Positions 10,193-48,710 of a stretch of DNA of 64,000 nt are shown one piece after another. The stretch is from Tubiluchus corallicola (Eukaryota > Priapulida > Priapulimorpha > Priapulimorphida > Tubiluchidae). The notes beneath the pieces were generated by a model. It searched no databases, was not told the DNA's origin, and worked only from the letters and a program-made list of their open reading frames with translations. Position numbers and translations under genes: made by a program. Location of the stretch: assembly GCA_030141605.1 (NCBI GenBank), contig JAQGDQ010000003.1:2499501-2563500 (forward strand). The letters are read 5' to 3'. Each line of letters starts with the position of its first letter. The first letter of the stretch is position 1.

Positions 10193-12768
10193 TTAATTAA
10201 TGCATACTTCTTTCCGTTTTGTTCCCCTTTCTCTGTCAGAGTACCTGGAGTCATAACCATGCCTGTGGTGGTCATCTATTTCTCTATACATAATTCTAGC
10301 ATGTTTGCTGTTCTGTTCTCGGGCGGAATCAGTGCTGTGTCGTTTGCTGTCATATCTATCAGAACAATCCCGAGAAGTGGAGCTACTTAATGTAATTTTC
10401 CTCTCATACCTGCCATCATGACTCGCACTCGAATGCTTATACGACTGTCTCTTATCATGACTCTCAGCTGAACGTTTGTATGATTGTCTGTTGTCGTAAC
10501 TGTCATTTGAGTGTTTGTGTGAATATCTCGCATCATTGCCGCTTCCAAGTTTTATCACCTTCCGATCATAGTTGATCGTAGATGGAGGAGGTTTGAGTCG
10601 ATCTTCTGCAGTTGAGGAGGAATGGGAAGACCTGGGATAATTCACACCACTCGATTTTTTGGCATTATTGCCTAGCATCCTGTTTTAAAGAAAACACTTG
10701 ATGATAAAAATACAATAAACTGTAATTTAATAACTTTGGTGCCAAAAAAGGTTTCACAAGTTATAAACTGTAGAAATGTGGTGTATTTAAAAAAAAACTT
10801 TTAGATTTTATTGCTGACTTGGAAAAATTGGAAAGTTGATAGTATCAACAACATGTACAAAATTTTAGCCAAGTATGTTACAAGTGAGTAAGAACAAACT
10901 TCAAAAACATACTTTTCTTTCCACTCATCCTTTTCATCCACAATGTTTTTTTTCCAACGCAAGTTGACTTTCTTCTGAAGTCTGCGCAATTTCAATCCAA
11001 TACGATTTTTTCTATTTAAAATACAATAAATGAAAAACATTTAAATGCTCTTTCAAATCAGTGTATAAACGATATAACCAAAGTATTTTATATTACTTTG
11101 GTTAGTTATATATAAAAAATTGCTGTTTTGTACGTGCGATTTATACATTTATGTATTATGCAATATCCAAATCATTATATCATTTTAACAGAGCCGTTAA
11201 TACATGTATTATCCTATTTTGACACAAAATTTGACAGTAGAAATGCATTGCAGACATCTCTTTTTAACTCTTTAAAAAGTGCTATATACATTTTTAGACA
11301 GCTGGGAAAACCTTTCTCACATTTTTTTTATTGCACAAATAAGTTCCCCATTGGATCACTTTGTAGCTTCAATTCAAAATATTGTTCATAATATGTATAA
11401 ATTTTGTTACTGTATAATTTTATTTAAACTCAGTTGTCATTTGTCAAGGGCTTGCCCATACCACAGATTAACTTTAAGTCTTAAAATGAAAATTCCCAAC
11501 TTTAGTAGCTGCATTACTCAACAGCTTTGTGTAGGTCTGTGTTCCCAGTTTGTGTAATCTAGCACCACAAATGGACGATTTTATTCCGGGTAAAGAGAGG
11601 GAATATTCTATGCTGATTTTCCCTGGAGATAGCAGTTGGTGGAAAATTGAAAAAAATATTTCAAAACAGGGAGAAGGAATGATACCATTAAATTAACCTA
11701 ATTAATATTTCTGGCTAAATTTCATGAAAACTACATTTAGCCTAAAAGCAGCAATGATGAGAAAACAGAAAATTGAAATACGCTGCAATAACAAGACAAT
11801 AAAGCTTAAGATACCAGCGACGTTACGCTAAAACTTTTGCATGCTATAGCTCGTTACTAAAATTTTTTTCATCTATCGTATATATTGCATTGAAGTAAGT
11901 GTGGACACGTAATTATGATTTGAGCTTAACAAAAAATGCCTTCAGCATTGCTTTAATATATGCAAGTGTTTCTTCAGATATTTTCAAATGGCCGGCTATG
12001 TGCTACCTTTTTGAAATTTTTTTGATGCACCCACCATTCTACTAAGCCTAGACAGCTAGCAAGACAATTCTGCTAATAATTAAAGTACACAGTTAAACAA
12101 AATTAGATCAAATTATGACCTAATATAATTTATGTCTAACTTAAAGTCAGTCATGATCGACAAAAAAGGTTCAGAAAGTTAGGAGCCTTTACGAGTAACC
12201 TACGTGATAAAAGCCTTTACGAGTAACCTATGTGATACCAAATTTTTGTAGTATGACCTGTGATGCCCAAACTAGTGCATTCATAGTACTGTTTCCGGAT
12301 GTGAAGAACAGTGCCTACAAAAGTGCTGACAATGCGTTCGACCCATTGTTACTATGCTTTTGTTTGGGTAACTTTATCTGCTTAGCACAGAAAAATCAAA
12401 TACCAAATGTTAAACAAACCTTAATTCAGACCAGAAACCACAAGCTCTGGCACAGAAAGTCAGTAGTCATACAAGCAAGAGTTATTTCAGCTGTATAAGT
12501 ACAAGTTTTAAATGAACTTATGCATAGATTTACCTGTATTGTCGCTGTGGAAATGGTAAGACGACCCTGTTGTACAGATCAACTAAGGCTTGTTTTTGCA
12601 CGAGGTTTAAATTAATTCGTTGACAACCCCTCTGAAAAATACAGTGAAATGAACTTATGCATATATTTACCTGTATTGTCGTTGTGGAAATGGTAAGACA
12701 ACCCTGATGTACAGATTAACTAAGGCTTGTTTTTGCATGAGTCTTAAATTAATTCGATGACAACACTT
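10193..12768 (-). CDS. Ashwin homologue (C2orf49 family), 5' end not found
   Basis: Coding exons in transcript order: either of two alternative exons (12671-12768 or 12534-12631), then 10913-11011, then 10193-10679 with the stop at 10193. Phases join without a gap (98, 99 and 487 nt). Recognition rests on two Ashwin signatures: the block reading LVDLYNRVVLPFPQRQYR followed across the splice by KNRIGLKLRR, equivalent to vertebrate LTDLY..PLPQRDLPKNRWG; and DRLKPPP in the last exon. The C-terminal part is rich in Ser, Arg, His, Tyr and Lys repeats resembling SR-like low-complexity sequence and ends KRKEVCIN. Ashwin is a nuclear protein linked in vertebrates to embryonic cell survival and to the tRNA-splicing ligase complex. 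The N-terminal exon with the expected HPELLS-like motif was not located. Divergent to NSUN4. Confidence 0.82.
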
Positions 12769-12783
12769 CTGAAAAATGCAGTG
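12510..12783 (-). repeat. 137-bp tandem duplication containing an Ashwin exon
   Basis: Two head-to-tail 137-bp units (12510-12646 and 12647-12783). Each contains a complete 98-nt exon with acceptor (TTTTTCAG or ATTTTTCAG type) and GTAAAT donor. The exons differ at 10 of 98 bases (7 residues); both frames are open. Only 39 nt separate them, and 98 is not a multiple of three, so including both would break the frame. Confidence 0.9.
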
Positions 12784-14299: not shown

Positions 14300-15047
14300 T
14301 AGTTTTTTGCTGGATTGCTGCTGCGTTTACCTGTCTGAAGGGCGAAATCTGCCTGCCCTGAATTTTATTTTAGAATTCTGCCTGTCCAATGTCTACAACA
14401 GACGTGACGGGCGGATGAAGATGATGATAATGTCATCAATGATACATAGTAACATAATGACAATGTCAACATGACACATTTTGTTTTCAAAAATAATTGG
14501 ATGGAATTAATAACCTTTTCTAAAAGCTGTAAAAATCTATAAAAGTCGACTCAAATACCTTTTGTAGAAGATAAATTATGGCTTCTTTAACCATAATTTC
14601 GGGATAAAGTAAATCATTTGCAGAAAAATTATCACTGCAGGAGTCTGCCATTTTTATATTACCACACTCAACCAGTTAATAATTATTTTCAAAATTACGG
14701 TCAGCTAACCTTTGGTAGTTGATCTGAATAAAAACTCAAAAAAATTACGTATTGCGCTTGCACGATTGAAAGCATAGTAGTTTTTATTGCAGACAAAATA
14801 TTTTTAAAGAAAAATTTAAAGCGTTGTTTTCAATTGGTTATGTCTGTAAATACAGCACGTTGAAAAACACTGGCACGTTGAGACCGACCATAGTCGTTAA
14901 CGTTTGTTTAGTTTCTAATGTCGTTACAAATGTCTAGTTTTTTCTGTGTTGCTGCTGCGTTTTCCTGTTTTGACAACAGATTTGTTTTATTTTAGAGTTC
15001 TGGCAGCCCAGTTACTACAATGCACGTAATGGGCATATGATGAGAAC
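14300..15047 (+). repeat. Diverged direct duplication, about 110 bp
   Basis: About 14300-14425 and 14930-15047 share TGTCTAGTTTTTT, GCTGCTGCGTTT, CCTGT, TTTATTTTAGA.TTCTG and a following TACAA..GACGT-like segment in the same order. Identity is only moderate. The nature of the unit is unknown; it may be an old dispersed repeat. Confidence 0.5.
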
Positions 15048-15897
15048 CAATACTATTTTTTTGTACATTGAACTCTTGCGTGATCATGAAGGCGTTTGCT
15101 TTGTTACGTTGTGCTAGGAATGTCACCATTTTTCAAATTAGATGTGTTAATGTTCCTCGAAAGTGGAAAGAAAAAGTGGTACGCTTTGCTTTAGTAATAT
15201 TAATAGTAATACTGTAATTTGGTAAGCTTTATAATAGTAGACTCCAAATATGGAAACCACGTTTTTTCCAAACTGTACACACTGAATACAATTCTGTACA
15301 TTTAAATGAATGGAAATGTTATTGATAGAGCAAATTATTTTGACAAATACGCGCATTTTAAATTAGTTTCTATGTAGTCAGTATTCTTTTAATAGCGGTA
15401 CTACTGGTATGTTTTGACTTTTAACTCAAACTTTTTTTATTCTGTATAACTCATAAATTATAAGCGTGGAAACTTCTGTCACAGGCTGTTAATTTTACAA
15501 TAAGCGGTCTAGTAGATTTATAAAATTATTACTGACCACTTAGAGCTATTTCAATTTCAGTTTATTTATTTCGCATCAATTTTATATCATAGTAATTTAC
15601 ATTTTTACATACATGTACATCATTGCATAATGTTAGTTGAAGCTAATAGGTATAATAATTGCAATTAGTATCCATTCATGGTAAAACTACTGCAGCAGCT
15701 CAAAAAGCTTATAATACATGTAGCTGGTACATGTGAAATAGAAACAAGGAGGTAAAAAAGGTATGTATAAAAGGAATTTATATGAGTAAAAAAATGTTAT
15801 GGCTGAATTTAAGAAAGAACAGAAGATGTGACAATTATAATTATTATTATAATAAATTCAGTAAATGAAAAATAATAATTATGTTCTTTATGAACGT

Positions 15898-17176
15898 AGA
15901 TAAAAATAGCACAGGTAAAAGTGGCATGGTAAAATGGCACAAGCGGAAAAGTAGGTAAAATTGGCACAGGAAAAAATTGCGCAAGAAAATATGGCACAAA
16001 TTGAAAAGTAGGTAGAAATGACACAGGAAAAAATGGCACAAGAAAAAATGCTGCAAATGGAAAAGTGGGTAAAAATGGCACAGGAAAAATGGCATGAATG
16101 GAAAAGTAGGTAAAAATGGCACAGGTGAAAATGGCACACTTAGTAAAGTATGAGTTTAGGGTTAGGTTTGCTGTTACCTCTGACAAAGAAGGTATGCTTC
16201 AACACAGTTTGTTTGCTTGTTTAGTTGTTTTTTGTCTGCTATATCAGTAAACCTATTTACACAGAAACCATCTAACAGATTTACACGAATCTTTGTGTAG
16301 AAGTGTGTATATGGTGGCAAAATGGGCATTTTTTGCTATTCTTTTTTCGCAAAATCCACATCGGACAGCACATACAAAAATTATTTGTGAAAGTTGCAAA
16401 ACAAAATATTTTTCTAAAACAAAATTAAAACACAAGGTTGACCCTTTAAACATTGTATCATTTAAACTGATTCTGATTTCTGATAGTCATTAGTCTTAGT
16501 GTTATTGATAATTAAAGAGCAGAAAGAGAGAGAGAAAGAGAGACGAGGGGAAAAGATAAAGACAGGGGAAAAAAGGGAGAGAGAAGGGGAGTAGGAGAAA
16601 GAAAAGAAAAGGCAGCAAGAGACAGATAGGGAAGGAGAGAAGGATCGAGAGAGGAAGAGATAGAAGGAGGAAAAACAGGTAGGAGCGAACAGAAAAAGAG
16701 GAATTAAAGGTTTGACCCACTAAAATGCCTTTTAAAGCAATTAAAAATCTTACCTCGAATATTCTGTTAAACAATCTTACTGGAAAACGTTTTTTCTGTG
16801 ACACGAGTTTTTGAGGAAAAATATTTTCTGGCAAAAAGTATTCCAGAGAAAACATTTTTCTGGGAATGGCGTTTCTGTGAAAAAACTTTCTCGCAGACAC
16901 TTTTTCTGGGTAATAGTTGTTTCTTTTTGAAGTTCTTCCTGCTTTGCAAGAACACATTATCTGAAAGTGATCTTATTAAGTCGTCTACTGTATATTACAT
17001 GTTGCATCATAATTATTTTAATTACTTTCTTATTATTGAAATTATCTGTAACAAAACAAAATATGTGCCATTTTTACCTACTATTCCGTACGTGCCATTT
17101 TTTCTTATACCATTTTTTCCTGTGCCATTTTTACCTACTCTTCCATTTGTGCCATTTTTTCCTGTGTCATTTTTAC
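15898..17176. repeat. Inverted pair of minisatellite arrays with repeat-rich core
   Basis: The left array (15898-16139) has roughly five degenerate units built from GGTAAAAATGGCACAGG and AAAAAATGGCACAA, 40-57 bp each. The right array (17065-17176) contains the same unit in reverse complement. Between them lie a purine-only-like GA tract (about 16517-16700) and a second set of short repeats around TTTTTCTGGGAA (16786-16915). Overlapping frames in both strands are repeat translation. The arrangement resembles foldback-type elements, but no target duplication was found. Confidence 0.7.
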
Positions 17177-17263: not shown

Positions 17264-22053
<4,790 letters not shown>

Positions 22054-29700: not shown

Positions 29701-32700
29701 TTAGTTCTGTAGTTTTTGCTAAACTCCAGTTAGATTTTATTTTTCAGTACGTATTTCGTCACTTTGTCCAGCATTAGGGATCTAAAATGATGATATATAA
29801 TGGTCAACATATTTTAAACATTACGAATGCAAAAACTACGAACATAATTATCCAAACTAAGACAACAAGCAAATTCTTGCAAGAATGATGGCACAAAGTG
29901 CTAATATGTATTGAAGAATAAAATTATTTGATGCTACAGAATGGAGATTAGGCTTTTTCATTTGTTTCTAGGAGAGCCTTCTAATTTACCTTAGTATGTT
30001 ACTTGCACTCCCAAACCTTTTTGCATATGGAAGCCATTTATGTTGCAGAGAGTGTACGTACCTGGAGACAATGACGTTGGAGGAGAAGGAAATGACCTTC
30101 TTACTGCCGAGAAATTAGACAGATTTGCTAAGACATTTAGGCAAGATGACACTCATGTTGAATCAAAGTTTGTGAAATTTTTAAAGGTATGTACACCTCT
30201 TTATACATCGGGAAGTTGTGAAATTCTGCTTTCTCTAAATGTGTTGGTTTGACTTGATTTGCAAGAACGATTATTGTGAAAAAACTTTTAGAGTTTTTCA
30301 TCTTTCGTTTTACTTTATTACATTTTAGAGGTTACATTCTTATTGAAATGACTTTCAGAAGAAGCTTGTGTACTATCATCTCTCGTAGTAATGATAGTAC
30401 ATTGTGCTTTTAATTTCAGTTAATATCTAAGTAAATATTTGCAAAATTCAAATCTGGCTTTCACTTGTTTTTCAAAGTGTTTTGCATTCAATTTGCCAGT
30501 TTTTTTCTAATTAATAGATGCAAATTCAACAAATATTTGCCAAGTATTTGGAAGACAAAGAAGTATGGTTGTATAAAAGCATACTTTTCTTTTTATATTA
30601 TACATAGTTTGTGTTGTTGTATATATAAATTGTTTATAGCTTATATGTTGTGGTTACCATTACTCGTTATTTTATTCTGTGGTTTTAGGTGAATTTTTAT
30701 GCAATGCATATGGGTCATTTGGCAAAAAGCAGAAGAACTCGAAGTGGTGCATTTATTGTGTTATTGAGCCATGTATCTGCATTGCAACAGCGTAATGTTT
30801 TCACGACTGATGTAAGTTTTCAACACTGTTTTGTGTTTTTTTAAGTATTATGTATGGGATTAGGTGGCCAGGGATGAGCGGATCAACTAATTTCCCAATC
30901 TGCAAAAAAATTTGGTCTGCGAACTTGAGGTCGGCAGTCCTCTAAAAATCCACATTTTGCTACTAACATCATTCCGTAACTGCTCTACGACATTAATTCA
31001 AATCCGCGATCAGTATTGTGCTCAGTATTTTGTTAATGTTGGTCTGCATGTTGTGAACCATAACCTCAATAAAAAATCTGGTGCAGCTTGATTTCCTTTA
31101 TTTTACTATGCTCAAAAAAGTGGGGAGGTAGTGGAGGATTTCAACATAATTTGCAGAACACAGTCTTAACAAACTACATTATGAAATTTGAAATCTGAAC
31201 TTTACCATCAGACCATGAAACCTGAACTACTACTGTCCAACATACAATACCCAGATCTCTAATTACACTTCTAACTCTAGTTGAAAAGCCAGTAAATGGT
31301 ATGTGAATAGATAGTACAGTAACAAATAGGTAAATTATTTTTACAGGAAAACTACCAAAAGATGACAGCACCTCCCTAAGATACTAACACTTTCTGCTAG
31401 CATAATTTTCCGTCTGATGTTATTGTATTATTCTAACATTAGTTTTTTTAATAGCAAATAAAAGATTTTACTACTGCTGCTGCTGCTGCTACTACTACTA
31501 GTATAGTAGTATATTCATTTAATGATTAATGAAGCTAATTATTATTTTCATTTCGTTGTTTATTCAACCTGGTAGCTTCTGCTGAGTGAAAGTCTGTCGT
31601 TTGCTTTCCGCAACGTGCACGTTGATATCTAGCATTACAAAAAATTAACACCTGCAAAGATTCGATCTGCCAAGTTTTTGATTCGGATCCAGTCCACATA
31701 ATTCCTTGTTTTAAGTACTAGATCCGCTATCTGATCCGATGTGCGAAAACCTTGCGGGTCTTGGTCAGATCTGGTCTGCAGGATCGTGGTCCGCTCATCA
31801 CTGGGTGTGGTTAATGTTTATGGAATGGTAGCACCAATATACAAGTGCAAATATCAACTTAATCCATGCTTTCTATAAATCTGCCATTGAGGATTCTTAG
31901 TGACAGTGAACAGTGCACGTTCCATTAATTAACAACAGAATATATTCAAGGCGTAGAAAATTTTTACAGATTCTGTGTATTGGATGAATGATGTTTTTGC
32001 TATGCAACTCTTTGTTAAAATACAATGATTTTAAATTGGACGTACACAAAATACATCCTCTTGAATACCACTTACCTCTGCAGCAATGAATTTTTACGAC
32101 ACAGACCATCATGCCTCGTCATCTGTTATTATGTCTAAAAATAGTAGTAGTAGTGGTAGCAGCAGGAGCAGCAGCAGCAGTAGTAGTTGTTGTTACTTTT
32201 GCTTTTCGAGTAATGCTGACCTAGAAGGGGCCTTGCCAGAGTTGCCTAATGAGGCAAAGTCAAAATGGGCCCTCTAGAGACAGTTTTCCTTGGGGCCCCC
32301 TAGAGGCAGTTTTCCTTGTCTCCACTTGGATGATCATATGCCTACTTTATTCTTCTATTACTCCATACTATCAGGATCAAGGACCAAATTGACTTATTAA
32401 TTTGCCATAACAGACAAGTTAAAACAGTACAAATCTATATGCAGTCTACCTCGATCCTCCAGAAAATTTTGTCCTACAAAATACATTACAAACATAAGAC
32501 ACAACATGGGTTCCTCCTACCACAAAAGAAATCAAACCTACTTCAGTATTTTGACTATAATTCACATGAAGTTGTTACCACATTGCAAAGGCAGGTTAGT
32601 TTGTTGTATGACCCTTGCATTAGCTGCAGAATATCTCGCCTTTGGTATGAAAAGCTAAGTAAATATTTACTTGTATTATTAAATCCAATGCATGTGATTC

Positions 32701-38269: not shown

Positions 38270-48710
<10,441 letters not shown>

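Follow-up and report, generated by a model that had tools for sequence, protein, structure and literature searches.

Smith and Nadal-Ginard reportedly explained, in 1989, the exclusion between alpha-tropomyosin exons by the closeness of donor and branch point. Exons 4a and 4b of OGDH are mutually exclusive through a donor-branch point distance of less than ~50 nt, as described in the available portion of the source (PMC7969005), and about 50 nt is the steric threshold for mutually exclusive exons in the available portions of that work and of a human survey (PMC7969005, PMC5740500). The survey, in the excerpts available, counts 377 (60%) of 629 duplicated exon clusters as frame-protected, and 57 (9%) as having potential steric interference (PMC5740500). 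Among animal genes, ~10% hold tandemly duplicated exons according to a 2002 study, as cited in a passage of PMC9013439.

For Ashwin, the accessible text on the zebrafish protein describes residues 1-83 as holding an N-terminal part, ordered and helical, by which it binds the CGI99-FAM98B heterodimer (PMC12135372), and according to the excerpted part of a review the FAM98B form of the tRNA ligase complex depends on Ashwin to enter the nucleus (PMC13247085). These two sources together, in the portions available, assign FAM98B-CGI99 binding and nuclear localisation signals to vertebrate Ashwin (PMC12135372, PMC13247085). A search of the open-access literature found no account of a duplicated exon in Ashwin/C2orf49.

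The window, by which we mean the whole stretch of 64,000 nucleotides of Tubiluchus corallicola DNA that was analysed, carries on its minus strand a gene that we identify from its sequence as Ashwin (C2orf49), a subunit of the tRNA ligase complex, with exon 2 present as two tandem copies. Upstream and downstream are used below in the direction of the gene.

14559-14651, minus strand: Ashwin exon 1, MADSCSDNFSANDLLYPEIMVKEAIIYLLQK, with donor GTATTT, ending in phase 0; newly found
12647-12783, minus strand: upstream copy of the 137-bp unit
12671-12768, minus strand: upstream copy of exon 2, 98 nt, open, KCCHRINLRLMQKQALVNLYIRVVLPFPQRQY + AG
12632-12670, minus strand: spacer between the exon copies, 39 nt, GT...AG
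12510-12646, minus strand: downstream copy of the 137-bp unit
12534-12631, minus strand: downstream copy of exon 2, 98 nt, open, RGCQRINLNLVQKQALVDLYNRVVLPFPQRQY + AG
10913-11011, minus strand: Ashwin exon 3, 99 nt
10193-10679, minus strand: coding part of Ashwin exon 4 with the stop codon; last coding exon, likewise newly found

Joining these exons through either copy of exon 2 gives a protein of 258 residues, which matches the Pfam Ashwin profile (PF15323, curated cut-off 27 bits) at 58.5 bits with the downstream copy and 55.6 bits with the upstream copy; an artificial in-frame form without exon 2 has no Pfam match. An earlier note on this DNA had proposed an Ashwin homologue and an exon at 10913-11011, and the full gene model bears out the former, while the latter is present at 99 nt. 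By sequence alignment only, residues 10-73 align to residues 20-81 of the zebrafish Ashwin chain 9i8v_F (E = 9.4e-4), a chain that went undetected when exon 1 was left out of the query. Exon 2 makes up residues 32-64 of the 258, and aligns within the zebrafish segment that docks on FAM98B-CGI99, because zebrafish residues 1-83 hold the CGI99-FAM98B-binding N-terminal part. Matches to the FAM98 family in this genome lie on at least one contig (C341), where at least four pieces on one strand follow the order of the profile, as a single gene would; a TAG is read through in one piece.

Other features of the window were recorded alongside the gene. Two related minisatellites with a AAAATGGCAC core (15896-16150 and 17061-17174) lie in opposite orientation ~1 kb apart, between Ashwin and a divergent open stretch (18147-18530, plus strand) that has no Pfam match and may share a gene with an exon at 21733-22053 (plus strand). 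The latter has a match of 33.3 bits to PF01189, the profile for RsmB/F RNA methyltransferases, and we take it to resemble NSUN4. Farther along the plus strand, the exon at 27381-27653 matches Metallophos below threshold (18 bits) and that at 29995-30252 has the look of a metallophosphoesterase, with no profile match at E 0.01; both presumably resemble an MPPE1-kind metallophosphoesterase. A C-terminal exon on the minus strand (38270-38536) resembles that of a G-protein alpha subunit, with a match of 27.7 bits to the final positions of PF00503, below the family cut-off. At 170-485 there is a TTATCG hexamer array of ~53 copies with 98% matches, beside ATT repeats.

The 137-bp unit is present twice, head to tail and with no gap, and consists of the 98-nt exon with 15 nt of intron on its acceptor side and 24 nt on its donor side. 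The earlier note had called this duplication perfect, which is right for the junction, where abutment is exact, but not for the sequence; 125 of 137 bases are identical (91% identity), leaving 12 differences. A blastn match between the unit copies within the window has E = 2.6e-52, so that chance resemblance is not at issue. Each exon copy is complete, with AG/GT borders, runs from phase 0 to phase 2 and keeps its frame open, and PFPQRQYR is kept in both; here the earlier description of two complete exons with both splice sites, open and 39 nt apart, stands as given. The pair thus has the layout expected of mutually exclusive exons: both are open, and they are adjacent, homologous and equal in length and phase. 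The exon holds ten of the 12 differences and the flank two; of the exon differences, eight are protein-changing and affect residues 1, 2, 4, 9 (two changes), 11, 18 and 21 of 33, and two are silent, at residues 23 and 29, in agreement with the counts first reported.

A DNA search with the exon pair found one place in the assembly (343,548,820 bases in 2344 contigs), which is the window itself (C1915:2499501-2563500). Within the window, no further exon copies were found besides the gene itself at E < 0.05 (best stray 0.079 by blastn, 0.29 by tblastn). A retrocopy of spliced mRNA would reveal the copy in use; the DNA search with the pair matched the window only. Relatives by which the changes might be polarised were sought among viral contigs, with eight pattern matches, and genome contigs, with 93, none being confirmed in either set. 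Judged from its sequence, the tandem duplication in Ashwin is real and looks young, and its layout favours either/or use.

Sampling of 20 stretches of 10 kb on the same contig gave tandem arrays with units of at least 100 bp at four places, which corresponds to 20 per Mb (95% interval 5-51), a rough rate since all four lie in two of the 20 stretches, one of which is the contig end; the count covers neither loci L001-L005, which were chosen by a match, nor the window. One of the 10-kb stretches on this contig holds two long arrays, of 252 bp x 6.2 (L018:4448-6022) and 381 bp x 3.9 (L018:6948-8425). Exon duplication itself is ordinary; this case is set apart by how small its spacer is and by the gene in which it lies.

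The argument for either/or use comes from frame and spacer. Translation of a form that includes both copies stops after 71 residues, 175 nt before the last junction, as foreseen in the earlier claim that using both would shift the frame; with the spacer retained the stop comes after 64 residues, 235 nt before the last junction. From these translations no productive transcript with both copies is predicted, and since both stops lie far before the last junction, we expect such transcripts to decay. The form that skips both copies stops after 56 residues, only 24 nt before the last junction. Within the spacer there are two yUnAy branch-point-like adenines, one at +21 relative to the upstream donor (19 nt ahead of the downstream exon) and one at +26 (14 nt ahead). 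These candidates fall below the ~50-nt threshold, as would any other branch point inside a spacer of 39 nt; the true branch point may sit elsewhere. An AG at spacer bases 16-17 leaves little space for another in the spacer. Spacer geometry, together with the loss of frame in the both-in, spacer-retained and skipped forms, therefore suggests that either/or use is built into the anatomy, and the either/or logic put forward in the earlier note gains support from both.

The core signals point strongly to neither copy: the donors are identical over nine bases (CAG|GTAAAT) and the acceptors nearly identical, so no strong preference for either is expected from them. Branch-point-like sites number three over the final 72 nt of the upstream intron and two in the spacer. 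RNA folding of the 341 nt around the pair was no better than that of shuffles (z = 0.41), and gave no indication of a docker/selector arrangement there.

Divergence between the copies was compared with expectations for drift, each test being weak as there are only 12 differences in total. The exon has dS 0.099 and dN 0.111 (dN/dS 1.13, from the two silent and eight protein-changing differences), and its divergence (10/98) shows no detectable difference from that of the flank (2/39; Fisher p = 0.51). A dN/dS of 1.13, with exon divergence not below that of the flank, fits the pattern of unconstrained copies. The earlier note had read the high share of protein-changing differences as a possible sign of diversification or of relaxed constraint; it is no sign of the former, for simulated open copies have a mean of 6.8 residues changed per 10 substitutions and seven are observed. 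Positive selection is unneeded where eight protein-changing differences in ten are the outcome of random change. Ten random changes in one copy leave the frame open with P = 0.52.

The placement of the changes is less even. With a boundary set post hoc, residues 22-33 have two silent and no protein-changing differences, and the other 21 residues none silent and eight protein-changing (Fisher p = 0.022); given an open frame, and again with the post hoc boundary, zero protein changes in residues 22-33 has P = 0.048. Among nine exon residues common to the downstream copy and zebrafish, read off the alignment to 9i8v_F, eight are unchanged in the upstream copy, with residue 1 differing (R downstream, K upstream); at most one change in nine has P = 0.45 in drifting open copies, and this comparison gives no support for constraint.

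Family fit was judged against 28 simulated open copies of the downstream exon, each with ten random changes and scored with Pfam, a somewhat severe null as all ten changes are placed in a single copy. These have a mean of 45.4 bits (sd 5.0), the downstream form 54.8 and the upstream form 51.7; the upstream copy has thus lost 3.1 bits compared with a simulated mean loss of 9.4, and two of the 28 simulated copies reach 51.7. The downstream copy outscores the upstream by 2.9-3.1 bits. Single swaps into the downstream form at residues 1, 2, 4, 9, 11, 18 and 21 change the score by +0.5, -1.3, -0.1, -0.8, -0.5, -1.0 and +0.8 bits, so that the profile prefers the downstream residue at four sites and the upstream at two, with one near zero; as the signs are mixed, neither copy is superior throughout. 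At residue 21, where the upstream copy has Ile and the downstream Asn, the former is the better fit to the profile (+0.8 bits). The earlier note had pointed to the downstream copy as keeping the family's DLY where the upstream has NLY; the copies do read so, but DLY is not invariant (zebrafish 9i8v_F has GLY) and the change from D to N costs 1.0 bit only, making this a weak argument for the downstream copy. On balance, the sequence appears to lean only slightly toward constraint on both copies.

The likeliest explanation, which we hold tentatively and by a narrow margin, is that some transcripts carry one copy of exon 2 and some the other, yielding two forms of Ashwin. Almost as probable is use of a single copy, the other being the as yet undecayed passenger of a chance tandem duplication, with splice sites that are perhaps silent or outcompeted. 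A passenger would account for the dN/dS of 1.13, for a count of residue changes like that under random change, for the lack of any sign of constraint when all nine zebrafish-common residues are counted, and for the 2.9-3.1 bits by which the downstream copy is better; with four distinct arrays in the sampled stretches, tandem units of this size are common enough nearby that an exon would be caught occasionally. Less expected of a passenger are the open frame, the intact splice borders, the lack of indels and the unchanged residues 22-33, as are a family fit for the upstream copy that beats 26 of the 28 simulated drifting copies and its better residue at position 21. If one copy alone is live, the candidates are nearly matched: the downstream copy fits the family slightly better, and the upstream keeps the original intron and has one extra branch-point-like site.

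Two further explanations carry little weight with us. Improbably, the spacer could be spliced as a tiny intron, or be retained, giving a frame-shifted mRNA and lowered Ashwin output. It has GT...AG ends, the both-in and spacer-retained forms stop far before the last junction, and a 43-nt human intron is spliced in cells and in vitro (PMC4463651, as excerpted). That study, in which introns 37-65 nt long were screened, gives splicing evidence for 15 of 22, its available text not specifying confirmed lengths below 43 nt (PMC4463651); a spliced 39-nt spacer would undercut the 43-nt human intron described there. Against this, the spacer has five G in 39 bases, unlike the G-rich human introns of 43 and 49 nt, and majority use would lose the gene, so that such splicing would be a side product at most. 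Very improbable is an assembler's joining of two haplotypes of one exon in tandem. Small tandem errors do occur in assemblies, but a 9% difference that alters seven of 33 residues within a conserved domain is in our judgement far above the usual allelic difference; the join is exact at both ends, and the DNA search gave one place with no separate single-copy contig. We set joined alleles aside as unlikely, given the one assembly location found and how much the encoded protein differs.

Use of both copies would then arise as follows. A recent 137-bp tandem duplication would have copied exon 2 of Ashwin along with its nearest intron sequence, 15 nt at the acceptor and 24 nt at the donor. With near-identical splice sites and a 39-nt spacer, the upstream donor and a spacer branch point could hardly be engaged together, and transcripts with both copies, with the spacer or with neither copy would lose the frame. 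The pair would thus be an either/or set of exons by default, a special regulator being unneeded, and the two Ashwin forms would differ at seven residues in the N-terminal segment that in zebrafish docks on FAM98B-CGI99. We regard as a long shot the further proposal of a regulated exon switch, in which the two forms would have different FAM98-CGI99 affinity and would tune nuclear import of the tRNA ligase by splicing, with only one FAM98-family gene found here, where vertebrates use FAM98 paralogues.

Use of both copies would make this a mutually exclusive pair of very recent origin, little diverged, in a subunit of a tRNA-splicing complex, and would show that duplicating an exon with so short a spacer can be tolerable at once, geometry and frame already barring the harmful combinations. 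If one copy only is used, the duplication is an ordinary passenger.

By Pfam and alignment the gene belongs to the same family as zebrafish Ashwin 9i8v_F, the duplicated exon being the difference here. As in OGDH, adjacent homologous exons lie in one gene; the distance from donor to branch point is 25-41 nt in the available account of OGDH and, for the candidates here, would be 21 and 26 nt. OGDH, as there described, differs in that the closeness is due to distantly placed branch points within a longer intron (avian and mammalian lengths 118-131 nt) and in that its two exons are demonstrably used, and the human clusters are RNA-seq validated in the excerpted survey (PMC5740500); the Ashwin pair, a candidate seen in DNA, has a whole spacer of 39 nt, putative branch points and a young duplication. 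Like the frame-protected human clusters in that source, its exon length is not a multiple of three, making double inclusion non-functional (PMC5740500). In these comparisons the Ashwin pair looks like a candidate young case within a known class, the mutually exclusive duplicated exons.
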